IMG/VR virus record: IMGVR_UViG_3300035698_007470
Location: 1 to 24,711 of that record
DNA from: a virus
Strand: one strand, 5' to 3'
Length of the DNA stretch: 24,711 nucleotides
The notes beneath the pieces are model-generated. The model made no database searches. It saw nothing but the letters and a program-made list of their open reading frames with translations, and was not told the DNA's origin. Shown here piece by piece: positions 4,560 to 21,983 of this stretch. The position numbers and the translations under genes are program-made. Position 1 is the first letter of the stretch. Every line of letters begins with the position of its first letter.

Positions 4560-5555
4560 ATGCCTGACATTCTCAAGAGCCGGGCGGCATGCCTGGCACA
4601 ACACGCCGGCCTGTGGTGCGCCGTTCCCGGATGGCTCGACACGATGGTCGGCGCAGTGAACCGCGGGTTGCTCAGCGGCCGCGGCGAGTTCGCGCGCCTG
4701 GCTGTCGAGCAGCGCGAGGTCCGCGACGCGCTCGCCGAGCTCGGCGACGACGCGCTTGCTGACAACCGAGAGCGCCGACCGAGGGCCGCGGCTGAGCTTC
4801 GCGAGAAGCGGCACCGCCCGTTCATGCTCGACGAAAGCGGAATCGCTGTGATCGAGATGGTCGGCCCGATGATGAAGGGCAGTAGCAAGCTCGGTTCGAA
4901 CGCGAACACGATCGACGTGCGCCGAGCTATTCGGGCTGCCGTCGGAGATCCCGAGGTGCAGGGCATCCTGCTCGTCGTCGACTCGCCTGGTGGCACCGTC
5001 GCCGGCACCGCTGAGCTCGCGGCCGACGTTCGCGCCGCCGCCGAGAAGAAGCCGCTGCGCGTGCATGCCGACGACCTCATGGCGAGCGCTGCGATCTGGG
5101 CGACCGCCTCAGCTCACCGGATCACGGCGTCGCCGACGACTGAGGTCGGCAGCATCGGCACCGTGCTCGTCGTGCAGGACACGAGCGAAGCAATGGCGAC
5201 CGAAGGTGTTCGCGTTCACGTCATCAGCACCGGCCCGAACAAGGGCGCCGGCGCGCCTGGTGCCGAGGTCACGCCAGAGCAGCTCGCCGGACTGCGCGAG
5301 CGCGTCGAGGACTTGAACGCTCACTTCATCAAGGCGCTCGAAGACGGCCGCGGCCTCAAGGGTGCGAAGCTCGACGCCGTCAGCGATGGGCGAGTTTGGA
5401 TCGCGGAGCGTGCGCAAGGCCTCGGCCTGATCGATGCAGTTGCGACAATGGATGAAGCGCTGACGCACTTCCGTCGCTCGCTGGCTCGGTCGGCCCGTTC
5501 GCGGGCGGCGCGCGCTGATTTGGCTGAGGCCGAGCTCCGCGCCGCCGGCCTATAA
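4560..5555 (+). CDS. S49 (SppA/ClpP-fold) prohead maturation protease
   Basis: This 331-residue serine peptidase probably trims capsid and scaffold sequences during head maturation, as its place between portal and capsid indicates. The crotonase-like core starts near residue 94 (IAVIEMVGPM). The oxyanion-type loop DSPGGTVAGT is at 141-150, the catalytic serine is expected at Ser176 in DDLMASAAIW, and the general-base lysine at Lys228 in GPNKGAG, which gives the Ser/Lys dyad of family S49. GSIG (197-200) is also conserved in SppA-like enzymes. The N-terminal 90 residues and an Arg/Ala-rich C-terminal helix (about 305-331) flank the core. The C-terminal helix could carry a scaffolding role, since no separate scaffold gene is evident, but that is inference. 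A hairpin follows the stop by 4 bp. Confidence 0.92.
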   Translation: MPDILKSRAACLAQHAGLWCAVPGWLDTMVGAVNRGLLSGRGEFARLAVEQREVRDALAELGDDALADNRERRPRAAAELREKRHRPFMLDESGIAVIEMVGPMMKGSSKLGSNANTIDVRRAIRAAVGDPEVQGILLVVDSPGGTVAGTAELAADVRAAAEKKPLRVHADDLMASAAIWATASAHRITASPTTEVGSIGTVLVVQDTSEAMATEGVRVHVISTGPNKGAGAPGAEVTPEQLAGLRERVEDLNAHFIKALEDGRGLKGAKLDAVSDGRVWIAERAQGLGLIDAVATMDEALTHFRRSLARSARSRAARADLAEAELRAAGL

Positions 5556-5559
5556 AAAC

Positions 5560-5588
5560 GGGGCCGAACGCTCCAAGCATTCGGCCCC
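5560..5588 (+). terminator. Hairpin after protease gene, probable terminator
   Basis: A perfect 9-bp stem, GGGGCCGAA (5560-5568) with TTCGGCCCC (5580-5588), encloses an 11-nt loop and starts 4 bp after the protease TAA. The tail TCTCATTG is only weakly T-rich, so termination may be partial or the hairpin may protect mRNA ends. Together with the hairpin after the capsid gene it brackets the 734-residue gene and the capsid gene as a separate expression block. Confidence 0.6.
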
Positions 5589-5678
5589 TCTCATTGTCGC
5601 ACGTCCCACTGATCTGTCCGCGCTCCTCTCGGCTAGAAATCCTAACCGCAAATCCCCAAACGGGAGAGAGAGAGCAAT

Positions 5679-7883
5679 ATGAAACCGCTGGCAACATTCA
5701 CGCCCCGCCCCGCTGCCGCCGACGGCGCCGCTCATCCAACAATCACCATCGCGACACCGAGCACCATCCCGACGAAGGCTTGGGTGCCGGTGCCGGTGCC
5801 ATACCGCGACGCCATTGATCTCGGCGAGCTCGCGACGTTCAAGGCCGAAGGCCGACCCGACGCGCTCGCGATTCGCGGCCCGGCCGTCGGCGTGCAAACC
5901 GTTTTCTACGATGTCCTGCTGGAGCTCGCCGCGCTCGACGTCGTCGCCGGCGAGCTCGTGCCGATCACCGCTGCCGAAGCCGAGAAGCTCAGCGCGCCCG
6001 AGGTCGCTAGCCTCGATGCCTCGCCGGCTGACGACATGAACGAAGACGCACCGCTTGGCCTGGTGCCAACCGATTGGGTCGTCGACGACCTCAGTCGCCT
6101 AGTGCCTCGCTTTGTGGTTCGCGAAAGCGACGGCACGACGCACGCGCCCGAACCGACACAACCCGTTCTCGAGTTCGCTAGCCGTGCGCGACAAACCTGG
6201 TCGGTCACGGTCCGCTGCGGGCCAATGGTGCTTCACTTCTGGGCGACGTTCTGGTCTGGCCAAGACGTGGTCGAGTGGGAGCTGCTGCCGGTTCACAGCG
6301 ACCCGAGCGCAGCGCGCCGCACCGTTACCATCGAGGACATCACCGTGCAATTCGGCGAGCCGGTCGTCGTGAATGACGCGGCCGCGCTGGGCATTGCACC
6401 GCCGATCTACGACCGCGCGACCGACGTTTGGCGGTTTGACCTGGTCGGCGGCCCGACCGAGGTCGGAGACGCGCAGGGCTTTCCGATCGTGCGCGGTGCA
6501 TTGCTGGCCACCGACTCGCGTCACCCTTGGTGGCATCACTTACTGAGCACCGACGAGAAGACCGCGCAACGCATCGAGCGGCTCAAGTCTCGCATCGTTG
6601 GCGCCCCGATCTCGGGAACGCATTGGGATGGCAAGTGGCTGGCGTTTCAGGCGACCATCCCGGCCGGCCCGAGCGACCGGGCCGAGCTTGACGGCATTTG
6701 GGACCAGCACCGCAGCGACCTGGCCGGCGGCCGCGAGACGTTTTACGTTCGCCGTCGCGGCCAGAACAAGAACGCCGGCGCGACTGGCGCGCAGGGCGAC
6801 TTCGCTGCGACGAAGGGCGGCCAGATCCACCTCGGCGACTTGCGTGCGGGTTTGCTGTGGCACTACCACACGCAGGAAGCGATGCGGCCGATGCACTACC
6901 GAGAGCAGAGCGGCGCGCCGGTTCTCTTCGCGGATCACCCGGATTGGGTCACTTGGTCGCAAGTCACGCATTGGCACTGCGACGTCTCGACCGACCGGCT
7001 TGGAAAGGGTTGCCCACCGATGCCGAGCAACTCGCACGGATTCACCGGCAAGGACGACCAGCACGTTACGAGCAACGCGCTCGCTGCCAACGTCGCCGCC
7101 TTCGATTGGCCCGCGCACCGAATGCTCGTCCGCGACGAGATCGAGGTCGCGCTCGCGAATACACGTTTGCACAAGCAGCGATCGCCCGGAGCTCCGCGCG
7201 CCGTCGGCCGGCGAATGCAGCAGAACGCCAACCAGTTCATGCTGACCGGCCGCGAAGACGTTTGGGCCGGCTTGGTCGTGGAGCATGGAAGAATCGCGCA
7301 CGAGTTCGCCTTCACGCCGGCCAGTGTGACCGGCTTCCGGTTGCAAGGCGCGCCGATGGTCGACGGGCGGCAGTTGCGCCAAGGCGGCGACCCGAACGCC
7401 GATCCGGTTCCGACGTTGGTTGTCTGGCAGGAGGGCCTCGTGCTTCGCGGCTTGGCCGCCGGCTGGGCGACGCACCGCTACCGGCAGAGCATCGGCCGGC
7501 CGACAATCGCCGGCACCGAGAAGATCGGCGAGCAGCTCGTCGGCATCGCCTCGACGATGATGCGGCACTGTTTCGCCAAGTCAGGCGGGAAGTGGCACAC
7601 CTGGTTGGCTTTGCTTTGGGAGAACGGCCAAGCGCCAGCGCCAGCAATCATCAGCAAGCTCGAACAAACGCCCGGCGTAGCAGAAGGCCGCGTCGGCGTT
7701 TCAGCTGGCGGCTGGTGCCCTTGGATCATGGCCGGGCTCTACTACTTGGCGCGCGCTGATCACAGCTTGAACGTGCCGGCTGACGTCGCGGAAAAGCTCG
7801 TCGGCCTGGCCACCGAGATCGACGCCGCGCTAGTCGGCGCGTCGATCTCCGACCGGGAATGGTGGGCTGTCGTGCAGAGGTAG
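5679..7883 (+). CDS. Large protein of unknown function between protease and capsid genes
   Basis: I do not recognise this 734-residue protein with confidence. It begins at ATG 5679 after a purine tract, GGGAGAGAGAG. The first 330 residues look beta-rich, including strands around TWSVTVRCGPMVLHFWATFW (about residues 173-192). A middle region is dense in Trp, His and Asp, with HPDWVTWSQVTHWHCDVSTD around 425-445 followed by GKDDQHVTSN. The last 250 residues read as paired helices (ALAANVAAFDWPAHRML, GEQLVGIASTMMRHCF, GGWCPWIMAGLYYLARADHS). This order, beta barrel or sandwich then alpha/alpha toroid with His/Asp-rich loops, resembles carbohydrate-active enzymes such as YetA/rhamnogalacturonan-lyase-like families. 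That is a weak structural inference. It has no signal peptide or membrane segment. Base composition matches its neighbours, so it is not an obvious recent insert. A capsid decoration protein is an alternative. Confidence 0.6.
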   Translation: MKPLATFTPRPAAADGAAHPTITIATPSTIPTKAWVPVPVPYRDAIDLGELATFKAEGRPDALAIRGPAVGVQTVFYDVLLELAALDVVAGELVPITAAEAEKLSAPEVASLDASPADDMNEDAPLGLVPTDWVVDDLSRLVPRFVVRESDGTTHAPEPTQPVLEFASRARQTWSVTVRCGPMVLHFWATFWSGQDVVEWELLPVHSDPSAARRTVTIEDITVQFGEPVVVNDAAALGIAPPIYDRATDVWRFDLVGGPTEVGDAQGFPIVRGALLATDSRHPWWHHLLSTDEKTAQRIERLKSRIVGAPISGTHWDGKWLAFQATIPAGPSDRAELDGIWDQHRSDLAGGRETFYVRRRGQNKNAGATGAQGDFAATKGGQIHLGDLRAGLLWHYHTQEAMRPMHYREQSGAPVLFADHPDWVTWSQVTHWHCDVSTDRLGKGCPPMPSNSHGFTGKDDQHVTSNALAANVAAFDWPAHRMLVRDEIEVALANTRLHKQRSPGAPRAVGRRMQQNANQFMLTGREDVWAGLVVEHGRIAHEFAFTPASVTGFRLQGAPMVDGRQLRQGGDPNADPVPTLVVWQEGLVLRGLAAGWATHRYRQSIGRPTIAGTEKIGEQLVGIASTMMRHCFAKSGGKWHTWLALLWENGQAPAPAIISKLEQTPGVAEGRVGVSAGGWCPWIMAGLYYLARADHSLNVPADVAEKLVGLATEIDAALVGASISDREWWAVVQR

Positions 7884-8161
7884 TGACGGCAACCTCGCGT
7901 ATTGCGATTAGTGCGCGGAATGGGTTTTGGCATGTTGCTCGTTGCCCATTGACGAGGGCTTGGCGGTGTTGCACGTTCGAGTGCATAACCCGGAAGGCTC
8001 CACCGCCGCCGACACACCTCGCCGTTGCGAGCTCGTCGACGGCAACGGAGTTCGACGACACCGAGCAGCTCGCCGTTGCGGCCTCGGGGATCGTCTGACG
8101 AACGCTCGCGTGGATTCCACCGCGTGACGGATACCAGACCACCCGAAACGAGGACCCCGCC
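7884..8161. other. 278-bp gap before the capsid gene, no convincing gene
   Basis: This is the longest gap in the structural region. Two overlapping frames (7859-8098 and 7927-8127) are open, but neither has a good ribosome site or a recognisable protein. A 12-bp direct repeat, CTCGCCGTTGCG, occurs at 8018-8029 and 8069-8080. Its core CCGTTGC can pair with GCAACGG at 8042-8048 from either side, so two alternative 7-bp hairpins are possible. The capsid gene's GAGGA ribosome site (8150-8154) closes the gap. A promoter or leader for the highly expressed capsid gene is plausible here, but I see no clear -35/-10 pair. Confidence 0.45.
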
Positions 8162-9577
8162 ATGAATTGGTTGGAGATGCAAAAGAAGGCCGCCGAGCTG
8201 TTGACTCAGGCGCGCGGTTTACAGACCGAGCTCACCACACAAGCCGCCGAGATGACGGCCGAGCAAGTCGACGAGCAGACCACCAAGGTCGAAGCGCTCA
8301 TTGCTGAGGCGAACGGGCTCACGGCCAAGGCCGAGCGACTCGAAGCACTGGAGACGTCGCTAGAAAGCGCCGACGCCAGCGCCAGCGCACGCACCGCGCC
8401 GGTTGCCCAAACCGACGACCCCGAAGCGACGGATCGCGTAACCGCGCACCGCCGGTTGCCTGCTCAGGCTCGCGACGCCGAAGCCGAAGACCGCCGCGGA
8501 TTCCGCGACTTCGGCGAGTTCGCGGCCAGCGTCTACGCGGCCAGCCCGGCCGCCGGTGGCAACCACCGGATCGACCGGCGCCTTGGCGCGCTGTACGACG
8601 AAGAGGCCGGCGTGAACGCCGCGACCGGACTCGGCCAGACCGTCGGCAGCGAAGGCGGCTGGCTAGTTCCGCCGGCGTTCTCAACACGTGTTTGGGATGG
8701 CATGCGCAAAGAAGAGGACAACCTCCTGGCGCGCACCGACATATTCCCGATCGACGGCGAGAGCCTCACGCTGCTTGCGAACGCCGAGAAGTCACGCGCG
8801 ACCGGCAGCCGCTACGGTGGCGTGCAAGGCTACTGGCTCGAAGAGGCCGACCAGATTCTTGCCAGCAAGCCGAAGGTGCGCCGGATGAAGCTGGAGCCGC
8901 ACCAACTCGCTGCGATGGTCTACGTCACGGACAAGCTGTTGCAGAACGGCGGCGCCGCGGTTTCGGCATGGCTCGAGCGCGCCTGTCGCGCGGAACTCGG
9001 ATGGCTCATCAACGACGCCATCATGAACGGCAACGGTGCCGGCAAGCCGTTGGGCATCCTCAACAGCTCCTGCTTGGTCACCGTGGCGAAGGAAGTCGGC
9101 CAGGCGGCTGACACGGTCAATCAGGAGAACATCGCCAAGATTTGGGCGCGCATGCACGCTCGCAGCCGTCGGAACGCGGTTTGGCTATTGAATCAGGACG
9201 TCGACCCGCAGCTCGATCTCATGGTGAGCAACGTCAAGAACGTCGCCGGCACCGAGAACGTCGGCGGCTTCGTGGCAGGGCTTTACAATGCCGATCGCGA
9301 CACGCTCAAGGGCCGTCCGATCATCCGCACGGAGTTCAACAAGACGCTCGGCGACAAGGGCGACATCGTGTTGGCTGACTTGACTGGCTACGCTTCCGCG
9401 TTCCACCGTGCAGGCGTGAGCTCGGCGATGTCGATGCACTTGCGATTCGACTACGCGGAGACGGCGTTCCGGTTCATGGCCGACGTCGATGGCCAGCCGT
9501 GGCTCAAGGATCCGATCACGCCGGCAAACGGCTCCAACACGCTGTCGCCGTTCGTGGCGTTGGCTGACCGCGCGTAG
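8162..9577 (+). CDS. Major capsid protein, HK97 fold
   Basis: This builds the icosahedral shell. The 471-residue product starts with a long coiled-coil delta domain (about residues 1-75, heptad-like Leu/Ala/Glu), which serves as the internal scaffold and is normally removed by the maturation protease. A charged linker follows. The HK97 shell domain begins around residue 150 with GLGQTVGSEGGWLVPPAF, and the E-loop and spine region includes PHQLAAMVYVTDKLLQN. Diagnostic is NGNGAGKPLGILNS (about 287-300), the near-invariant motif of the family, followed by NAVWLLNQDVDPQL. The C-terminal P and A domains include GRPIIRTEF and a final LRFDYAETAFRFMADVDGQPWL. Starts at ATG 8162 with GAGGA 7 bp upstream. 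The long N-terminus agrees with the lack of a separate scaffold gene. Confidence 0.96.
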   Translation: MNWLEMQKKAAELLTQARGLQTELTTQAAEMTAEQVDEQTTKVEALIAEANGLTAKAERLEALETSLESADASASARTAPVAQTDDPEATDRVTAHRRLPAQARDAEAEDRRGFRDFGEFAASVYAASPAAGGNHRIDRRLGALYDEEAGVNAATGLGQTVGSEGGWLVPPAFSTRVWDGMRKEEDNLLARTDIFPIDGESLTLLANAEKSRATGSRYGGVQGYWLEEADQILASKPKVRRMKLEPHQLAAMVYVTDKLLQNGGAAVSAWLERACRAELGWLINDAIMNGNGAGKPLGILNSSCLVTVAKEVGQAADTVNQENIAKIWARMHARSRRNAVWLLNQDVDPQLDLMVSNVKNVAGTENVGGFVAGLYNADRDTLKGRPIIRTEFNKTLGDKGDIVLADLTGYASAFHRAGVSSAMSMHLRFDYAETAFRFMADVDGQPWLKDPITPANGSNTLSPFVALADRA

Positions 9578-9584
9578 CGGGCAC

Positions 9585-9613
9585 CCGGGCGGAGCTCGCT
9601 GAGCTCGGCCCGG
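9585..9613 (+). terminator. Strong hairpin after the capsid gene
   Basis: CCGGGC (9585-9590) pairs with GCCCGG (9608-9613), and GAGCTC (9592-9597) with GAGCTC (9601-9606), separated by one G-G mismatch, around a GCT loop. The stem is followed by TTT. It starts 7 bp after the capsid stop. A partial terminator here would keep capsid mRNA in excess over downstream connector and tail genes, as seen in many phages. Confidence 0.65.
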
Positions 9614-9642
9614 TTTCCATCAACTCGGATAAGGAGCGCGCG

Positions 9643-10053
9643 ATGCCATTCTCTACCGCGATCGATAACTCGATCCTCGACCACTACACGGGCAAGAGCT
9701 CGTGGACCGCCCCAACGGCGATCTACGCGGGCTTGTCTTCAACCACGCCGACCAAGGCCGGCGGCAACGTCACCGAGCCAAGCGGCGGAGCCTATGCGCG
9801 CGTTGAAATCACGGCGGCGCAGTTCGATTCCGCATCGAGTTCAGCGACGCAGACCAACGCCGACAAGACTTTCCCGACCGCCTCGGCCGACTGGCTCGCC
9901 GGCGCGGATCTTACGAACCTTGTCATCTACGACGCCGCAACGAGCGGCAACTTCCTCGGCTTCAAGGCCTTCACGGTCGCGAAGCCCGTTACCAATGGGG
10001 ACACCGCCAAGATCAACAGTGGCGACCTCGACATTTCAATCGGAGGCACCTAA
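9643..10053 (+). CDS. Small virion protein, beta-sandwich 'GLSTTTP' type
   Basis: A 136-residue protein with a textbook AAGGAG ribosome site 6 bp before ATG 9643. It belongs to a widespread but poorly named phage family that I recognise by its order of motifs: N-terminal ILDHYTGKSSWTAPTAIYAGLSS in pieces (residues 7-29), TTPTKAGGNVTEPSGGAYARV, then TFPTASADW (about 75-83) and NLVIYDAATSGNFLGF. Members are found among head, neck or tail-fibre genes, and some are called tail-fibre-like. Placed directly behind the capsid, a decoration or neck-fibre role is the simplest inference. No enzymatic motif is visible. Confidence 0.7.
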   Translation: MPFSTAIDNSILDHYTGKSSWTAPTAIYAGLSSTTPTKAGGNVTEPSGGAYARVEITAAQFDSASSSATQTNADKTFPTASADWLAGADLTNLVIYDAATSGNFLGFKAFTVAKPVTNGDTAKINSGDLDISIGGT

Positions 10054-14276: not shown

Positions 14277-14708
14277 ATGCCAAGCCTGAGCAGAACGGAC
14301 ATCCTGGGAGCCAAAGACCTCGGCCTGACGCCGGTCGAGGTTCCCGAGTGGGGCGGCACGGTCTACGTGCGCAGCATGACGGCGCGCGAGCGCATCACCT
14401 GGGAGGGCATGATTCGCGAGCAGTTCGTCGGAGCTCGCGCCGAAGCTTCAGGCGCAGACGGCGAAAATAGAGTGGGGCTCGAAGCGCTCGAGCAAGAGAT
14501 GGCCGACCGGAGCATTCACACCGACTTGCTAGTGCGAACCGTTTGCGATGAAAACGGCGAGTTGCTGTTCACGGCCGAAGACATCGAAGGGCTCGAAAAG
14601 AAGGCTTGGCCGCCGCTCCGTCGCGTGCTCGAAGCGGCAGCGAAAGCCTCTGGCATCGCACTTACCGGCGACGGGCCGCCGATGGTCGAAGACGTGGGAA
14701 ACTACTAA
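14277..14708 (+). CDS. Tail assembly chaperone, short (G-like) form
   Basis: The 143-residue product of normal translation is the counterpart of lambda gpG, which coats the tape measure during tail assembly and is absent from the finished tail. Typical features are a short N-terminus LSRTDILGAKDLGLTPVEV, the beta-hairpin PEWGGTVYVRSMTARERI (about 23-40), an acidic helical core, and CDENGELLFTAEDIEGLEKK (about 91-110), a motif shared by small chaperones of this type. The gene ends with GGGAAACTACTAA, where a fraction of ribosomes is expected to slip into the -1 frame and read on to 15091. Starts 4 bp after the tail tube stop. Confidence 0.85.
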   Translation: MPSLSRTDILGAKDLGLTPVEVPEWGGTVYVRSMTARERITWEGMIREQFVGARAEASGADGENRVGLEALEQEMADRSIHTDLLVRTVCDENGELLFTAEDIEGLEKKAWPPLRRVLEAAAKASGIALTGDGPPMVEDVGNY

Positions 14709-15091
14709 GGCGGGACCGGGACGAACGAACCTGGTTCCGCCTCGCCGCTACACTTGGGGCAACCGTTGAAGAACTACAGAAACGAATCAGCAGTCGAGAG
14801 TTTCAGCGCTGGAGAGCGTTCGAAGTCGTCGACCCATGGTGGCTTCCGCAGCGCCTCGACGCGGCCGTTGCGTTGCTCTGCTCTGTCGTACACAACCAAA
14901 GCCGAACCAAGCGGAGCCAGATGCGAGGCGCCGACAAGTTCTTCCCGGACTATGACAAGAACGCCCGCCGCCTACTGCGCCGATTCAAGCCTTTCGAGTC
15001 ATCGGGTGCCGACGACCTGCAGGCACGCTTCAAGTTGCTCACCGTTCAGAGCGGCGGCACTGTGCAGACGTCTGCACCAAAGGGAGCGTAG
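14277..15091 (+). CDS. Tail chaperone frameshift fusion (GT-like), joined at 14702
   Basis: The long form is read as 14277-14702 and then, after a -1 slip, from 14702 to the TAG at 15089-15091. This gives 142 + 129 = 271 residues, with the junction VEDVGN-LLRRDRD. The T-part contains TWFRLAATLGATVEELQKRIS and SREFQRWRAFEVVDPW, matching the T domain of tail assembly proteins (pattern L-x-S-x-E-F-x-x-W-x-A-F). In lambda the fusion binds the tape measure and tail tube through this domain. No start codon with a ribosome site precedes the T-part in its own frame; the open frame upstream of 14702 (from 14606) reads as Arg-rich shadow sequence. The last codons contain palindrome site 4. Confidence 0.88.
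14696..14742 (+). promoter_or_regulatory. -1 programmed ribosomal frameshift signal
   Basis: GGGAAAC (14696-14702) is a canonical X-XXY-YYZ slippery heptamer in the zero frame (GTG GGA AAC). Two codons later comes the short form's stop. A 13-bp stem follows after a 5-nt spacer: 14708-14720 pairs base by base with 14730-14742 (two G-T wobbles), with loop ACGAACGAA. The spacing and order fit known -1 stimulators. Confidence 0.92.
15062..15077. promoter_or_regulatory. Palindrome site 4 (GTGCAGACGTCTGCAC), before tape measure
   Basis: Fourth copy and the only one that is a perfect 16-bp palindrome, because its centre is CG. It forms the last codons of the chaperone T frame (V-Q-T-S-A-P). It ends 3 bp before the AGGGAG (15081-15086) of the tape measure gene, matching the layout of site 3. 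In RNA it could form a 6-bp hairpin with loop ACGU. Confidence 0.65.
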
Positions 15092-15094
15092 GTA

Positions 15095-16666
15095 GTGGCA
15101 TTCATTTCCATTGGCAAACTCGCCTACACGGTCGCGGCGAATACCGGGCCGTTCGTAAAGTCGATGCGGGGAGTGTCGCGGCGGATTCACAAGCTCGGCC
15201 AGAGCAGCGGCATCAAAGGCATCGCGCGAATCGGCGCGTCGGCCCTAACCTCGACGACGGCAATGCTCGGGCTCGGGTCGGCGATCGGCACCGTCGCGGG
15301 ATCGGTTGCGCTGTTTAAGCGCGGAATGGCGATGGAAGAGGTCGAGCGCTCGTTCACGTCGTTGTCTAAGTCGATCGGTAGTTCGAGCGGGCAGATGCTC
15401 GCGAAGATGCGAACAGCAACGCACAGCGCCGTGAGCGACTACGAGCTAATGCTGGCCAGCAACAACGCGATGCTGCTGGGCGTCGCCAAGAGCGATCAAC
15501 AGTTTTCGGAGCTCGCGGGTAAGGCGATGGTGTTGGGGCAAGCGCTCGGCCGCGGCCCTGTTGAATCACTCAACGACATCACCATCGGCATCGGTCGCCA
15601 GTCGAAGCTGATCCTCGACAACCTCGGCATCATGATCAAGTCGGACGAGGCCTACAACGCCTACGCCGCCAGCATCGGCAAGACGGCCAGCCAGCTAACC
15701 GACGCGGAGAAGAAGCAGGCATTCTTCAACGCGACGCTCCAAGCTGTCGACGAGAAGCTGGCCGCGCTGCCGACGCAAATCGAAAGCGCCAAGGTGGCAT
15801 TCAGCCGGCTCGGCGCGTCGATCCTCAACATCATCGACCACGCGATGGCGCCGGTCGTGGCAGCGGCGACGCCGTTCGTGAACGAGCTCGCGAAGAAGAT
15901 TAAGGAGATCCCGATTCAAGACGTCGCGATGGGGATCTTCGACGTGTTTAGCGGGATCATCCAGGCGCTCGCATGGATTATCGACAACGTCGGGATCGTC
16001 GTCATCGCGTTCAATTTGATTAAGGCGATCGCCGGCGCAATCGGGGCCGCGATCTTTTCGACGTTCCACAATATCGTCGTTGTTGCCGACGAGGTTGCTC
16101 AGTTCTTTGGCGGCGAGGGCTTTGGCGAAGAACGGCGGTCATTGCACGAGCTCAAGATGGGATCGCTGGAGATGGCCGGCGATGGCTTCATGGGAATAGC
16201 TGGGGGCTTTGACCAAGTGTTCTACGGCGACACGAACGCGTCCGACTTCACGAACAACATGCTCGGTGAGATGCGCGAAGAGATGCGGAGCGCGCTGGCC
16301 AATGAAGAACAGCACCGAGCCGAGTCGGACGCGCAGCGAGCCACGCAGAGCAGCCACGCGGCCTTTGTCGAAGAAGTGAAGCGTACGCTCAATGTTCGTG
16401 ACCCGATCCTCGCCGAGCATATTGCCAACAAGCTCGGCGACGATCGCGAAGCGCTCGCAAAGCTTCATGGCCAGACCGCTGCCGATTCCGTTGCGCGCAA
16501 TATGTCGCCAACTGCCGTGACCGCTGCCGAACAAGAAGCGAAGGCGGCGAGCGCGCAGGAGAAAGCGACGGGCCTACTCAAGACCGGCAACAGCATTCAG
16601 CTACAGCAGCTGCAGACGCTTCAAGAGATTCGCGAAATCAGCCGCAGCGGCGGGAGGCTCAAGTAG
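15095..16666 (+). CDS. Tape measure protein
   Basis: This sets tail length and is ejected with the DNA. GTG 15095 is chosen because GGGAG (15082-15086) lies 8 bp upstream. The 523-residue product starts with a basic region (VKSMRGVSRRIHKLG), then a hydrophobic stretch at about 47-75 (IGASALTSTTAMLGLGSAIG), followed by the tape-measure core MAMEEVERSFTSLSKSIG and a long helical section with LNDITIGIGRQSKLILDNLGI and KKQAFFNATLQAV. This is typical of TIGR01760-type tape measures. A second hydrophobic block lies at about 283-330. The C-terminus is coiled-coil with Ala/Glu/Gln richness. At roughly 0.15 nm per residue the tail would be near 80 nm, short for a siphovirus. Confidence 0.9.
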   Translation: MAFISIGKLAYTVAANTGPFVKSMRGVSRRIHKLGQSSGIKGIARIGASALTSTTAMLGLGSAIGTVAGSVALFKRGMAMEEVERSFTSLSKSIGSSSGQMLAKMRTATHSAVSDYELMLASNNAMLLGVAKSDQQFSELAGKAMVLGQALGRGPVESLNDITIGIGRQSKLILDNLGIMIKSDEAYNAYAASIGKTASQLTDAEKKQAFFNATLQAVDEKLAALPTQIESAKVAFSRLGASILNIIDHAMAPVVAAATPFVNELAKKIKEIPIQDVAMGIFDVFSGIIQALAWIIDNVGIVVIAFNLIKAIAGAIGAAIFSTFHNIVVVADEVAQFFGGEGFGEERRSLHELKMGSLEMAGDGFMGIAGGFDQVFYGDTNASDFTNNMLGEMREEMRSALANEEQHRAESDAQRATQSSHAAFVEEVKRTLNVRDPILAEHIANKLGDDREALAKLHGQTAADSVARNMSPTAVTAAEQEAKAASAQEKATGLLKTGNSIQLQQLQTLQEIREISRSGGRLK

Positions 16667-17457
16667 TGCCAGTCAACATCCTCACGAGCGACCATTCGCT
16701 GAGCGAAGGCAGCGACGGCTTCAAGCTCGACCAGTCGCACTTCGTTGAAGTCACCGGCCACGCTTCGCAAGATTCGGCACTGTTCGACATTCTCAACGAC
16801 CCGAACATTCCGCGCCGAGGCGATCCGCACCCGATCATTCCGAACATCAAGGTCACCGACCGTTCGGTCACCCCGGTTGCCGGCGACTCGCGCCGCTTCG
16901 CTGTGAAGCTGGCATACACGATTCCAGGAGCCGGCGACCCGGTGAGCGGTTTGACAACCGTGAGCACGGGCAGCGGCTCGCACGGCGAGCAAATCAGCAT
17001 CGACCTCGATGGCCAGCCGATCGTTACCGAGGACGAGATGACCCAAGAGCTTCCCGACGGCGGCACGTCGACGCGGCTTGACCGTCAAGTGCATAGCGTG
17101 GACGTCGAGAGGCCAAGCACTTCGGTCGAGTTTGAGCGAGTCGAACAAGCAAACCCGACCGTGCTTTCCCGTGCCTACGTCGGCCGCATCAATCGATCGC
17201 TCTGGTACGGCGGCTCGGCTGGGACCTGGCTTTGCACCGGCATCCAAGGGGCGAGCGACGATGGTGGCGAGACCTACAAGGTGCGCTACTCGTTTCAGTT
17301 CGAGCCGAACGGATGGAACCCGACCATCCGGCATCGCGATCCGCAGACGGGCTTGCCGGCGTTCTTTTCGCCGTTCTCGCGCGCAGTGATTCAACCGAGT
17401 GTTTACCGCGCCGCCAACTTCGGAGCGCTTCGACTGACGCAGGGGCTTCGAACGTAG
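16666..17457 (+). CDS. Minor tail protein, unknown family (distal-tail position)
   Basis: I do not recognise the fold from sequence alone. GTG 16666 overlaps the tape measure TAG by one base, and the 263-residue product ends in a one-base TAG/GTG overlap with the next gene. Three regions stand out: an N-terminal beta part with LDQSHFVEVTGHASQDSAL; a middle segment with acidic GQPIVTEDEMTQELPDGG; and a C-terminal domain with LSRAYVGRINRSLWYGGSAGTWL, then DGGETYKVRYSFQFEPNGWNP. A similar 'N-W-x-G-x-x-x-x-T-W-L-x-T-G-I' run is found in other phage tail proteins downstream of tape measures, so a baseplate-hub or distal-tail role is inferred from position. Confidence 0.6.
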   Translation: MPVNILTSDHSLSEGSDGFKLDQSHFVEVTGHASQDSALFDILNDPNIPRRGDPHPIIPNIKVTDRSVTPVAGDSRRFAVKLAYTIPGAGDPVSGLTTVSTGSGSHGEQISIDLDGQPIVTEDEMTQELPDGGTSTRLDRQVHSVDVERPSTSVEFERVEQANPTVLSRAYVGRINRSLWYGGSAGTWLCTGIQGASDDGGETYKVRYSFQFEPNGWNPTIRHRDPQTGLPAFFSPFSRAVIQPSVYRAANFGALRLTQGLRT

Positions 17458-18125
17458 TGGTTGGCGAGATCGATAGACGATTCCGGCGGAGCTCGCGGCA
17501 AGACCTCAAGAACGAGAAACCGGGGCGATCGCTTGAACCATTCCGCGTCGGCGAGGTGTTGACGGCGGCGAAGCTAACGAAGCTCGTCGACGCGCAGAAC
17601 CGCACGACGTCATTCGGAGCAGCTCAGCAGATCAACGGGCTACGGGATCGCGTCACCGGCATCTTCGAGGCGCGCGTCGTCGACGAGCGCGACGACTTCC
17701 TGATCTGCGAGCTGTTCGAATACAGCGGCAACCCGGAGCGCATCATCGTCGCCAAGCCGTTCACGCTGCGCCGGCGCCCGCACGAATCATTTGGCCGCGG
17801 TGACATTGCCTTCGAATACAGCGACACGCCAGGGCAGCGCACGGCAACCTTCACCGATCCATCGACGGGCGACACCGCTTCGGCTGCGCACTTCATCAGC
17901 CCGGCCTACGTGCCGCGGTCCGGGTCCGATCCCGGCGATTTGCTTTACGTCACCAACAACATTGTCGGCGGCGTTGCTTTGTTCGCTGGCACGTTCGAGC
18001 TCGAAGGCGGCGTGGCGCCTGAGCACTTTATCGACATGAACACCGACGGCCGGCAGTGGGCCGCCGAGGTGCCATGTGAGCCTGCGGTCGAGCTGTCGAC
18101 TGATCCCACCGCCACCGCGGGCTAA
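17457..18125 (+). CDS. Tail-associated protein of unknown function
   Basis: The frame is open from 17232, but GTG 17457, overlapping the preceding TAG by one base, is the likely start because every neighbour shows the same coupling, and the upstream extension would be 75 residues of Arg-rich shadow sequence. The 222-residue product has a polar N-terminus, a short helix (VGEVLTAAKLTKLVDAQNRT), and then a mostly beta domain: RVTGIFEARVVDERDDFLICELFEY, PERIIVAKPFTLRRRPHESF and DLLYVTNNIVGGVALFAG. Small proteins with this layout, a conserved 'TA-x-x-x-x-L-x-x-x-V' helix before a beta domain, occur in tail modules of some phages. Function is unknown. Confidence 0.55.
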   Translation: MVGEIDRRFRRSSRQDLKNEKPGRSLEPFRVGEVLTAAKLTKLVDAQNRTTSFGAAQQINGLRDRVTGIFEARVVDERDDFLICELFEYSGNPERIIVAKPFTLRRRPHESFGRGDIAFEYSDTPGQRTATFTDPSTGDTASAAHFISPAYVPRSGSDPGDLLYVTNNIVGGVALFAGTFELEGGVAPEHFIDMNTDGRQWAAEVPCEPAVELSTDPTATAG

Positions 18126-18129
18126 GGCG

Positions 18130-20211
18130 ATGCCGAACCCGCCGACGCCGACGCTTGACACCGTTCGCTACCGCGTCGAAACGCGAGTCGTGACTCGGCA
18201 GAACTTCCCCGACATCGCGCTCGCTCCCGACGGATTCCGAGAAACGCGCTACGTGCCCGTGCGCCCGCTCGATCAGCTCGGCCGAGGACTTCACCGGACG
18301 AGCCAAGGCAACGCACGCGCAAAGATGCGGCCGCTCGTCGAGTGCTTGAGCAAGGTGCCGATCACGCCACCGCCAACGAACACGAGCGGTTGCGAAGATC
18401 CCGTCGCCGTTGCCGAAAGCGTCGTGGCTGCTCGCGGCGCGCGGCACTTGTTCATCGGTGCGCCTGGCGAGGACACGGCCGGCAGCGGGCAAGACGAGGG
18501 CCGGCTGTACATCGCCGAACCGCCGTCGCCGCATGGTGGCAGCGCTGGCGCGCCGCAAGGCCAGTGGTCGATTCGCCAACTCGAAGCGCCGTGGGGCAAG
18601 GGCTCAAGCGAGCGATTCGGCGACGCGATCGCCATCGATGACGACGGCGCTTACGTCGCTGTTGGTGGGCAGTTCGCGGAAGGTCGCATCGCTTTCTATC
18701 GGTTCGACGAAGACTCGGGCCAGTACGAGCACGCCGGCACGTTGCAGGCGCTTCCGGCGATCGACGACTTTGGTGCCGAGCTCGTGATGTCTGGCAGCTA
18801 CGCCGATCGGACGCTGGTGCTGGCGGGGCTTGCGACGAAGGGCCGGTTCGACGACGACAACGAGGTCTGGTTGTTCGAGGTCAACAGCGACGGCACTTGG
18901 GACGCTTCGCCGGATTGGACGCTCACAACGGCCGACGTTGCGACCGACGCCAGCCTCGACGCGAGCTACTTCATGGGCACGGCGCTCAGCCTTGCGACGA
19001 GCTCCGGCAGCACCCGGTTGCTTGTTGGCGATCCTGAGCTCGAAGACGGCGGTGACCAAGTGGGCGGCGTGCTTGTGTATGAGCGGCAGAGCGCCAGCTC
19101 GTGGACTTACGTGCAGCACTTGTTCGAGGAGCCACCGAACAATCGATGGCGTGGCAATCAGTGGGGCCGCAAGAGCGGCCAGAGCGCTACAGGCGATTGG
19201 GTTGCGGTCGGCGGATGCGTTGGCGGCAAATCGTTCAACGGAAGCAACACACCAACGAACGGCAGCGTCGCGCAGCTCTGGAAGTGGACCGGCTCGGCCT
19301 ACCAAAAGAAGGTGCAGCTATGGGGCCACACGGTTCGCGTGCGCGCGTCGTGGCGCATCGAGATCGGTGGCACGCTCAGCGGCGAAGCGTTCACGATTGA
19401 AGCGTGGGACAAGGACGTATTGCCGACGCCGTTCTACTCGACGTTCGGCAGCCACACCGATTCGACTGGCTCGATCGTCGACACGCGCGACGCGCTCATC
19501 ACGAGCTTCAACGGCAACATCTCGTCCGATGGATTGACCGCCACCGCGGGCGCGACCGATGGCGAGTTGCTCATCGTGCGCGACTTTCCCGGCGAGATCG
19601 AGGAGCAGTTCACGCTGCGGCTAACGACGCCCGGCGGCGCCGCGACGTTTGAGCTCGAAGAGACGACGGCATTCCCTTACCCGATTCCGCCGGCCACACT
19701 CGAGTATCAACTGACGATCCCTCCGGTGCATGGTGTCAGCTTCGAAGTCGACCACGATCGGCACGAGTTTCAGCACAGCGCCGCGGCTCGCTTGGACGTC
19801 ATGCTCGACCCGCGCGGCTTGCTTCTGGTGCGCGAACCCGGTCGACGAATCAGCGACTACGAAGACCCGTTTGGCTCGACGACAGCCGGCCACCTGACCG
19901 CCTCGGCCGTTCATGTTCTGACGTTCAACGAGGACACGGGCGCGCTCAAGTGGTGGGCCGTCATCACCGAAGAGACGGCCAACTTCGCGACGCCGGTCAC
20001 TGGGATCTCGGGCTACATCCAGCCGGCCTACTCGCCCACCGAGTTCGGGACGTCGATGGCGCTGCTCGATGACTTCCTCGTGATTGGCGCACCCGGCGAG
20101 CTCGACAGCGCAGCATTCGAACCCCGCAGCGCCTTCACTTTTTACGATGGCAGCACCGGCGCCGCCTACACCTACCGGCTCGACCTTGAAACGATCCTCG
20201 CCGACCGCTGA
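18130..20211 (+). CDS. FG-GAP-like beta-propeller tail protein with inserted module
   Basis: ATG 18130, four bases after the previous stop, is preferred to an in-frame upstream start at 18076 that would lie inside the previous gene. The 693-residue protein contains repeated FG-GAP-type blades, the unit of integrin-like propellers: HLFIGAPGED (107-115), RFGDAIAIDDDGAYVAVGG (162-180), DFGAELVMSGS with TLVLAG (213-233), MGTALSLAT with LLVGDPELED (282-306), GDWVAVGG (355-362) and EFGTSMALLDDFLVIGAPGE (638-657). Between blades, residues 403-512 form a separate module also found at the start of the protein two genes downstream. The propeller suggests surface binding, so a tail-tip or receptor-binding role is likely, though the ligand cannot be read. 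Signal peptide is absent. Confidence 0.75.
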   Translation: MPNPPTPTLDTVRYRVETRVVTRQNFPDIALAPDGFRETRYVPVRPLDQLGRGLHRTSQGNARAKMRPLVECLSKVPITPPPTNTSGCEDPVAVAESVVAARGARHLFIGAPGEDTAGSGQDEGRLYIAEPPSPHGGSAGAPQGQWSIRQLEAPWGKGSSERFGDAIAIDDDGAYVAVGGQFAEGRIAFYRFDEDSGQYEHAGTLQALPAIDDFGAELVMSGSYADRTLVLAGLATKGRFDDDNEVWLFEVNSDGTWDASPDWTLTTADVATDASLDASYFMGTALSLATSSGSTRLLVGDPELEDGGDQVGGVLVYERQSASSWTYVQHLFEEPPNNRWRGNQWGRKSGQSATGDWVAVGGCVGGKSFNGSNTPTNGSVAQLWKWTGSAYQKKVQLWGHTVRVRASWRIEIGGTLSGEAFTIEAWDKDVLPTPFYSTFGSHTDSTGSIVDTRDALITSFNGNISSDGLTATAGATDGELLIVRDFPGEIEEQFTLRLTTPGGAATFELEETTAFPYPIPPATLEYQLTIPPVHGVSFEVDHDRHEFQHSAAARLDVMLDPRGLLLVREPGRRISDYEDPFGSTTAGHLTASAVHVLTFNEDTGALKWWAVITEETANFATPVTGISGYIQPAYSPTEFGTSMALLDDFLVIGAPGELDSAAFEPRSAFTFYDGSTGAAYTYRLDLETILADR

Positions 20212-20725
20212 TCCCACCCGCACCGACTGGCGTGGCGTCAACCTCGACGATGAGGACTTCGGCCGCCGCTGTTGGTACGGCTACGACTTTAGGGGCGCGT
20301 CGCTGCGCTGCTCGAGGCTGGCTTGGGCGTCGTTCCCTAAGTGTCGGTTCGACGGCGCCGACATCCGTCTCGCGCACATCAAGAGCCGCAGCGATCTGTG
20401 GTGGCGCCGCAAGATGCTCAGCGAGCAAGGCGCCCTGCAGCTATCGCGGAAAGCGCTGGGCCTGGAGTTGCTCAAGCTGTCGTGCACACGTCTGCACGAC
20501 TTGCAGGAGCTCGCCGAGCAGCTCACAGAAAAGCGGTTCGCTCTGCCTGCTTGGGTCTCGCGTGATTCCGTCCTAGCGGCGACCATGGCAGCAGCGCAGG
20601 AGCACGAGCCGAACCCGGTCGCGCGTGATCTGACATGGGAAACGCGGCGCGTGGCGCAGCTACCGTTTCTCCCCGAGTTTGCTGCGCCCTACTTGCTTCA
20701 AAGGAACGCTGACTATGGCCACTAA
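20186..20725 (+). CDS. Pentapeptide-repeat tail-region protein
   Basis: The frame is open from 20084 and the start is ambiguous. TTG 20186 gives a 179-residue protein, MKRSSPTADPTRTDWRGV onwards, overlapping the previous gene by 26 bp; ATG 20147 is the alternative. No strong ribosome site precedes either. From 20234 to about 20383 about ten pentapeptide units follow, with central residues L, F, W, F, L, L, F, F, I, I in VNLDD-EDFGR-RCWYG-YDFRG type units and Ala/Cys/Ser at the minus-2 position. This predicts a right-handed square beta-helix of about two and a half turns. The rest is helical (RKALGLELLKL, LQELAEQL). Such folds serve as spacers or DNA mimics in other systems. In a tail module a fibre or adaptor function is more likely. 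It contains palindrome site 5. Confidence 0.62.
   Translation: MKRSSPTADPTRTDWRGVNLDDEDFGRRCWYGYDFRGASLRCSRLAWASFPKCRFDGADIRLAHIKSRSDLWWRRKMLSEQGALQLSRKALGLELLKLSCTRLHDLQELAEQLTEKRFALPAWVSRDSVLAATMAAAQEHEPNPVARDLTWETRRVAQLPFLPEFAAPYLLQRNADYGH
20482..20497. promoter_or_regulatory. Palindrome site 5 (GTGCACACGTCTGCAC)
   Basis: Fifth copy of the recurrent dyad, with a single change from the perfect palindrome (C instead of G at the sixth base). With flanking bases it extends to C...G at 20481-20498. It lies inside the pentapeptide-repeat gene, read as S-C-T-R-L-H-D, a third codon frame compared with sites 1 and 2/4. Confidence 0.58.
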
Positions 20726-21983
20726 GTTTTGGGTTGGGAAAGCCGCCGCCGTCGCGCAGGTCACCACGGTCACCGTTGGCGGCACGCTGAGCGGCGAAGA
20801 CTTCACCCTGTCGATCAACGGCATCGCCCTCGCGACATGGACCGACGCCAGCGCTGACGCAACCGACACGCGCGACGAGCTGATCGACTTGTGGAACGCC
20901 AGCACGCACCCCTACGCGACCGGCATCACGGCCATGGCCGCTGCCGGCGACACCTTGACGCTCACGGCTGACGTCGCCGGCGTTCCGTTCGTGCTTACGC
21001 TCAACACGCCAGGTGGGTCGGCAACCTTCGGCCAGGCGGCGACCACTGCCGCGACTGGTCCGAATCACTGGGACAACGCGACCAACTGGAGCGACGGATC
21101 GGCGCCGTCGAGCACCGACGTCGCGGTGTTCCGCAGCTCGTCGGTCTCGGTTGCTTTCGGGCTCGACCAGAACGCCGTCGAGCTCGCTGATCTCATCATC
21201 GAGCAAACCTACACCGGCCGCATCGGTCTCAACCGGAACGCCTTCGCGCTGAGCGCCGACGGCCAGATCGTGACGACGGCCGCCACCGAATACCGTGACG
21301 ACTACCTGCGGATCGGCTTCGACAACCTTCGCATCGGTGAGCAGCCCGGACCTGGTTCGCCAACTGGCTCGGCTCGCATCAAGATCGACTGCACGCAGAC
21401 GACCGGCACGCCGCGCGCCCAGGTGTTCAACACCGCGAGCGCACCGGCCGAAACCGGGTTGCCGGCCGTGCGCTTGCTGTTCGCCAACGCGGCCGCCGAG
21501 CTGCACTGTCGCAACGGCGCCGGCGGGATCGGCCTCGCGATCGACGAGCCAACCGAAACGACGACGATTGGCACGGTGACCGTCAGCGGCACGAGCTCGG
21601 CCTACATCGGCAGCGGCACCACGCTCACGACGTTCGAACAGAACAATGGCACGGCCCGACTCTCGGCGGCCGCCACGATCACGACGCTCAAACTTTGGGG
21701 CGGCACGCTGCAAACGGAGGGTGACTTCACCGTGACGGCCGCAACGGTCTACGGCGGCGAGGCCTACTTCAACCACGTCAAGACCGCCGGCAACGCGATC
21801 ACGACGCTCAACGCTAACGGTGGTGAGATCGATACGACTGACGTGCTCGACGACCGCACGTTTGCAACGGTGAACATGGCCACCGCCGGCCGCCTCAAGA
21901 TCAACGCCGACCACATCACCATCACGACGCTCAACCACCCGACCACCGGCGTCTTCACGGTGACGGCCGAGGAGGCCGCGTAG
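20715..21983 (+). CDS. Beta-rich tail fibre-like protein
   Basis: ATG 20715, with AAAGGA about 10 bp upstream, overlaps the previous stop by 11 bp and gives 422 residues; an open extension to 20679 is not needed. Residues 18-108 hold the same module as residues 403-512 of the propeller protein (GGTLSGEDFTL, TRDELIDLWN, LNTPGGSATF). A short linker then leads to NHWDNATNWSDGSAP (about 117-131), a motif known from autotransporter-type beta-helix proteins. The remainder is Thr/Gly/Ala-rich with regular short strands (TTIGTVTVSGTSSAYIGSG, TFEQNNGTARLSAAATITTLK, GDFTVTAATVYGG), typical of a solenoid fibre. A receptor-binding fibre or spike is the likely role. No chaperone or enzymatic domain is visible. 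Confidence 0.7.
   Translation: MATKFWVGKAAAVAQVTTVTVGGTLSGEDFTLSINGIALATWTDASADATDTRDELIDLWNASTHPYATGITAMAAAGDTLTLTADVAGVPFVLTLNTPGGSATFGQAATTAATGPNHWDNATNWSDGSAPSSTDVAVFRSSSVSVAFGLDQNAVELADLIIEQTYTGRIGLNRNAFALSADGQIVTTAATEYRDDYLRIGFDNLRIGEQPGPGSPTGSARIKIDCTQTTGTPRAQVFNTASAPAETGLPAVRLLFANAAAELHCRNGAGGIGLAIDEPTETTTIGTVTVSGTSSAYIGSGTTLTTFEQNNGTARLSAAATITTLKLWGGTLQTEGDFTVTAATVYGGEAYFNHVKTAGNAITTLNANGGEIDTTDVLDDRTFATVNMATAGRLKINADHITITTLNHPTTGVFTVTAEEAA

Follow-up and report, generated by a model that had tools for sequence, protein, structure and literature searches.

A virus-borne member of an unnamed α/α-toroid family related to PcRGLX/YetA and shared with Planctomycetota: a predicted carbohydrate-active enzyme

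The closest described relatives of the viral protein considered here, P0001, are the PL26 enzyme PcRGLX (PDB 5XQ3, 5XQG, 5XQJ and 5XQO; Pfam PF19501 and PF21345) and the Bacillus YetA-like proteins, which share with it a build of β domains followed by an α/α toroid; they differ in that their identity to P0001 is just ~11% and that P0001 falls below the detection of the Pfam models. The (α/α)6 toroid is also common to P0001 and the GH94 cellobiose phosphorylases, along with other such enzymes (GH116, GH47/127-like; Foldseek E 4e-5 to 1e-3), but the domain build of these differs and no sequence relation to them was found. Among viral proteins, the nearest parallels are the carbohydrate-active auxiliary genes and the phage depolymerases, which, like P0001, are virus-encoded putative glycan-degrading enzymes. 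Phage depolymerases are typically β-helical tail proteins; in contrast, P0001 is a predicted toroid, is not tied to tail genes and attains no usable PHROGs score. Planctomycetota, in which we found the cellular relatives of P0001, are major degraders of complex polysaccharides, and to our knowledge their viruses are almost unstudied.

The 734-aa gene and its position in the head module

The window, i.e., the whole 24,711-base stretch of an uncultured-virus record that was analyzed, belongs to an uncultured tailed phage and displays the gene order TerS, TerL, portal, S49 head-maturation protease (4560-5555), P0001 and HK97-type major capsid protein (8162-9577). An earlier sequence-only reading had described a 734-residue ORF larger than the terminase between the protease and the capsid genes, bracketed by an upstream hairpin and a 278-bp downstream gap. 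The ORF, which begins with an ATG, is confirmed at that position (Table 1), as is its size relative to the terminase (TerL has 572 aa); the gap has exactly the length given, and the two motifs quoted in that reading are present at residues 420-435 and 457-463. The hairpin is likewise real (folding of 5553-5682 gives z = -3.7, with 0/200 shuffles equally good), but it is not peculiar to P0001: G+C-rich hairpins are also present downstream of the capsid gene (gap 9578-9642) and of the tail-chaperone gene (gap 14709-14760). The codon-position GC of the ORF (0.69/0.51/0.81) matches that of the adjoining genes and holds steady along its length, which shows the frame to be coding. Around the gene, including the downstream gap, we looked for signs of a separate transcription unit and found no sigma-70-like promoter; terminator-like sites downstream of it are within the number expected by chance, the hairpin being on the upstream side. 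Direct repeats that might mark a clean insertion at the gene borders were limited to a single 9-bp match.

That HK97-type modules normally pass from protease to capsid without a large insert was borne out by three annotated phages with capsids among the nearest to that of the window in the phage collection, namely Bradyrhizobium phage ppBdUSDA122-1, Caulobacter phage W2 and Streptomyces phage Dagobah, all of which have the protease gene followed directly by that for the capsid. Further, a capsid-profile scan recovered 80 viral loci, and none of the 58 in which both portal and capsid were matched carries a P0001 homologue. In the nearest related locus with a protease (L012; 43% capsid and 46% protease identity) the junction is empty, with ~250 nt of non-coding sequence between protease and capsid as against the 278-bp gap that lies 3′ of P0001. 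Hence, the P0001 gene is a lineage-specific insertion, missing from this junction in relatives as an auxiliary or moron gene would be, and the 58 modules without it led us to reject the idea of its being part of a conserved head module. A locus with a 2.3-kb protease–capsid interval (L074) was considered as a second carrier and rejected, as there is no P0001 homologue inside it.

Table 1. Features of the P0001 gene and its flanks (window coordinates)
Feature	Position	Strand	Basis
Strong hairpin right after the protease stop	5560..5588		Resembles a terminator on the - strand; T tract weak on the + strand
Purine-rich RBS-like stretch GGGAGAGAGAGAG ahead of the ATG	5662..5674	+	Sequence
734-aa gene (P0001), viral member of the PcRGLX/YetA-related α/α-toroid family	5679..7883	+	ORF, codon bias, homologues, model and Foldseek, profile–profile comparison
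Predicted N-terminal β domains (residues ~20-276) with Pro41	5736..6506	+	AlphaFold secondary structure, column comparison
Predicted helical (α/α)6-type toroid (residues 285-729, ~12 helices)	6531..7865	+	AlphaFold secondary structure, PL26 and GH94 fold matches
Conserved motif HPDWVTWSQVTHWHCDVSTDRLGK (residues 420-443), putative active-site loop	6936..7007	+	Invariant columns in alignment A2 and in the 30-sequence core; low model confidence here
Conserved motif GFTGKDDQHVTSN (residues 454-466) with D459, H462 and N466	7038..7076	+	A2, column comparison; counterpart HGWNxFDxEHxS in the bridging group
Conserved RxxGR (residues 507-511)	7197..7211	+	A2, column comparison
Non-coding gap of exactly 278 bp ahead of the capsid gene	7884..8161

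A rare family of uncultured viruses and Planctomycetota

P0001 itself has no usable match in Pfam, PHROGs, NCBIfam or the sequences of the PDB, and single-sequence searches of viral, genome, phage and plasmid collections recovered nothing; we dismissed as noise the weak matches to cytochrome c552, desmoglein and protein A. The family was reached by means of a degenerate DNA pattern for the motif HPxWxxWxxxxHxH, scanned over viral contigs, which uncovered 15 viral loci with homologues (tblastn E 1e-15 to 1e-40). Their alignment (A2) is colinear over the full length of the protein and features 28 invariant columns, mostly H, W, D, R, K and N, that cluster as HPxWxxW...THxH..SxDRLGK...GxDxxHxSxN...R..GR. 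A search based on this alignment extended the set to 22 viral and 11 genome loci, nine of the latter being titled as Planctomycetota or a planctomycete genus and the remaining two only as “bacterium”. Family matches are present in 11 of 294 Planctomycetota genomes, about three of them strong and full-length. We found no member in the records of isolate phages and no description of the family in the literature searched, which took in only a minority of subscription journals. Judging from these matches, P0001, which had earlier been taken for an orphan of unknown affinity, belongs to a rare unnamed family of uncultured viruses with cellular members found only in Planctomycetota, two unassigned bins apart. 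At one viral locus (L217:7962-9991) the homologue is spread over two ORFs lying side by side (281 and 398 aa), being either a split gene or the result of a sequencing frameshift.

The closest relatives of P0001 are planctomycete proteins, at 30% identity. The unnamed and apparently exported Planctomycetota proteins (L219-L229, L241-L247) constitute the same family, with the same motif and full-length HMM scores of 329-392 bits; the neighbors of the cellular copies include genes for a polynucleotide phosphorylase-like protein, a histidine kinase and a serine/threonine kinase, housekeeping or regulatory genes that mark these copies as chromosomal. The cellular and viral copies differ at their N-termini: a hydrophobic segment precedes the first β strand in all 12 cellular copies checked (12-residue mean 1.68-2.38), whereas it is seen in none of the 18 viral copies (values of at most 0.87, or no extension at all), the maximum in the extension of P0001 being 0.26. 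This split is complete, the export call being a hydropathy proxy rather than the output of a signal-peptide predictor. Nor does P0001 have a longer start, for the open frame reaches just 11 codons further upstream. By this measure, the export signal is missing from the viral copies, P0001 included. In the maximum-likelihood tree, P0001 groups on a long branch with two planctomycete proteins (91/79 support), and this trio is nested in a strongly supported group that holds most of the viral copies; the family has likely crossed between cells and viruses more than once.

The capsid of the window has relatives in 31 of 294 genomes of Planctomycetota, the sole phylum sampled in this way, with 46% identity in L290. 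These relatives fit but do not prove a planctomycete host for this virus, which we infer. HK97 capsid genes with 37-46% identity to that of the window are frequent in Planctomycetota genomes (loci L290, L286, L288, L292 and L296); no portal or terminase matching those of the window is detectable near them, and they are uncharacterized prophages or capsid-like elements.

Predicted fold, putative active site and the link to PcRGLX/YetA

An AlphaFold model of P0001 built with alignment A2 (pLDDT 71.8, pTM 0.80) predicts N-terminal β domains joined to an (α/α)6 toroid; the single-sequence model (pLDDT 34.5) was meaningless and was discarded. The succession of β strands and then helix pairs, with loops rich in Trp, His and Asp, had earlier prompted the guess of an α/α-toroid, YetA-like fold, with structure prediction and a Foldseek search proposed as the check, and both the model and the search sustain it. 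Thus, the 16 Foldseek hits in the PDB at E <= 0.001 comprise ten chains of PL26 exo-rhamnogalacturonan lyases and six GH94 phosphorylases (best E 2.6e-5). The global TM-scores against PL26 are low, at 0.23-0.35 (rmsd 12-21 Å), so these hits speak for the fold class rather than for a detailed superposition. A viral structure library contained one 738-aa protein that matches from end to end (TM 0.55, E 2e-19).

Profile comparisons point in the same direction. P0001 has no direct match to the Pfam models PF19501 and PF21345 at their cut-offs, and a single family member reaches PF19501, at E 0.0099 only. We compared the family with 22 planctomycete proteins positive for PF21345 (PcRGLX_2nd), among them one that finds PcRGLX in the PDB at 2e-114. 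With the 30-sequence family on one side and these 22 on the other, hhalign gave a probability of 97.4% over 511 columns (E 1.2e-11, to be read, like all the hhalign values here, as a single comparison), whereas the controls, namely the reversed family profile and the terminase, portal and capsid profiles, all remained at or below 0.8%. The broader profile was required, as the core family against just two PL26 sequences gave a non-significant 2%. A planctomycete group (A3) bridges the two sets: it aligns with the family at 99.9% probability (E 7.9e-33), its motifs TGTPRN, RPYH, LSxExLGR and HGWNxFDxEHxS matching TGxQEDF, RxxHYE, VSPDRLGK and GWxGYDDQHRS, and its members are also found by a plain PL26 HMM at 7.7e-10. 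At the profile level, the P0001 family and the PcRGLX/YetA (PL26) group can be considered distant homologues across both the β domains and the toroid. At ~11% identity, neither the substrate nor even the lyase chemistry of PL26 is transferable to P0001.

The putative active-site residues are retained across the family, and the columns held in common with the 22 PcRGLX-like proteins include Pro41 (22/22), H462 (14/22), R507 (15/22) and G510 (11/22). The HPxWxxW..THxH..SxDRLGK loop of the P0001 family is, however, mostly unaligned in the PL26-like proteins. As the putative active-site loops have a pLDDT below 50 and the TM to PL26 is low, the model does not establish the geometry of this site.

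Gene neighborhoods and candidate functions

The sequence-only reading called for a survey of whether the homologues always adjoin S49 protease and capsid genes. They do not: in other viruses they are mostly found beside replication or nucleotide-metabolism genes, and the variety of these neighbors indicates that the gene is not tied to head genes. The associations include ribonucleotide reductase, dUTPase, dCMP deaminase and thymidylate synthase (L210-L212), primase and DNA polymerase (L213), primase (L197), helicase and primase (L199, L204), UvsX and an ATPase (L202, L217) and DnaB with SbcC (L208). In five further loci (L198, L201, L205, L206 and L218) terminase or portal genes lie no more than ~8 kb from the homologue, which is on the opposite strand in L198 and L205. 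In L213 (5518-10079) the primase gene ends at 7974 and the homologue starts at 7974, an overlap that suggests coupled translation.

We favor, with a probability of about 0.6, the interpretation that P0001 is a predicted virus-borne carbohydrate-active enzyme of planctomycete derivation that is not exported and reaches its substrate at lysis. Under this proposal, the gene would have been captured from a planctomycete family of exported enzymes, with the viral form starting right at the first β domain, shorn of the export signal. Lacking that signal, P0001 would accumulate in the host cytoplasm while infection runs, and cell lysis would most likely bring it to its substrate, conceivably a polysaccharide, acidic or pectin-like, in the envelope, matrix or biofilm of the host. 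Cleavage of this host-derived polysaccharide might then help the progeny get away and spread. The catalytic activity, the substrate, the timing and the release at lysis are, like the host, what we infer. Two observations count against parts of this proposal: the cellular copies checked are not in polysaccharide-degradation clusters, and the replication or nucleotide operon setting in several viruses also fits an intracellular substrate as opposed to release at lysis.

The latter setting raises the alternative that P0001 acts in the cytoplasm, where storage glycans, nucleotide sugars and sugar-modified bases are examples of possible substrates, and thereby feeds replication or modifies DNA. The want of an export signal in all 18 viral copies, the overlap with the primase stop in L213 and the nucleotide-metabolism neighbors in L210-L212 are in keeping with this; nevertheless, the signal-like N-terminus of every cellular relative examined implies that the ancestral substrate was extracytoplasmic, and in the window the gene stands among late structural genes, so that we rate an intracellular role as unlikely. 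The location between the protease and capsid genes was behind the earlier proposal of a virion-borne glycan-degrading enzyme encoded in the head operon. Such an enzyme would be co-expressed with the head genes, carried inside the particle or on its surface, and would degrade a host surface glycan at adsorption; in this virus, the gene does share its strand with both of these neighbors. A virion protein too would be expected to go without an export signal. This proposal is not supported and appears rather unlikely to us, for the position is peculiar to this virus, with 0/58 related head modules carrying the gene, its homologues lie mostly in replication or nucleotide-metabolism modules, and the aligned homologues show no fusion to structural domains. 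Still less probable is a composite scenario, in which a viral enzyme family not described before would descend from the exported toroid enzymes of planctomycetes and have been re-targeted to the cytoplasm. Its substrate would be an intracellular or DNA-linked sugar in some viruses, and the virus studied here would have recruited it into the head gene block as a glycan lyase carried by the virion. Adjacency to the capsid gene is also what might recommend a non-catalytic role for P0001 as a giant decoration or scaffold protein reusing an enzyme fold. Here, PHROGs returned no head decoration or scaffold match, the gene is missing from related head modules and not associated with heads in other viruses, and the putative active-site H, D, R, K and W columns are (nearly) invariant in viral and cellular members alike; we regard this idea, also raised earlier, as scarcely credible.

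Returning to the favored lysis-released enzyme, the uniformly signal-less viral members set against exported cellular ones would present a clear and testable case of a secreted host enzyme re-routed by viruses. The motif of the family provides a marker for finding such viruses, and the family is possibly a new one of polysaccharide-active enzymes.

Other genes of the window also deserve mention. The ORF for the tail assembly chaperone (14277-14708; phrog_344) is overlapped by one in another frame (14606-15091) that resembles the C-terminal part of the chaperone; a programmed frameshift in 14277-15091, with a strong hairpin at ~14709-14741, is possible. In the tail region that follows (15095-21983) most ORFs (523, 263, 297, 711 and 434 aa) are without a confident match in Pfam, PHROGs or NCBIfam, and by this token the tail module is very divergent. 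The gene after that for the capsid (9643-10053) codes for a head protein that matches the phage GP4 gp80 family (PF23140, E 5e-33).
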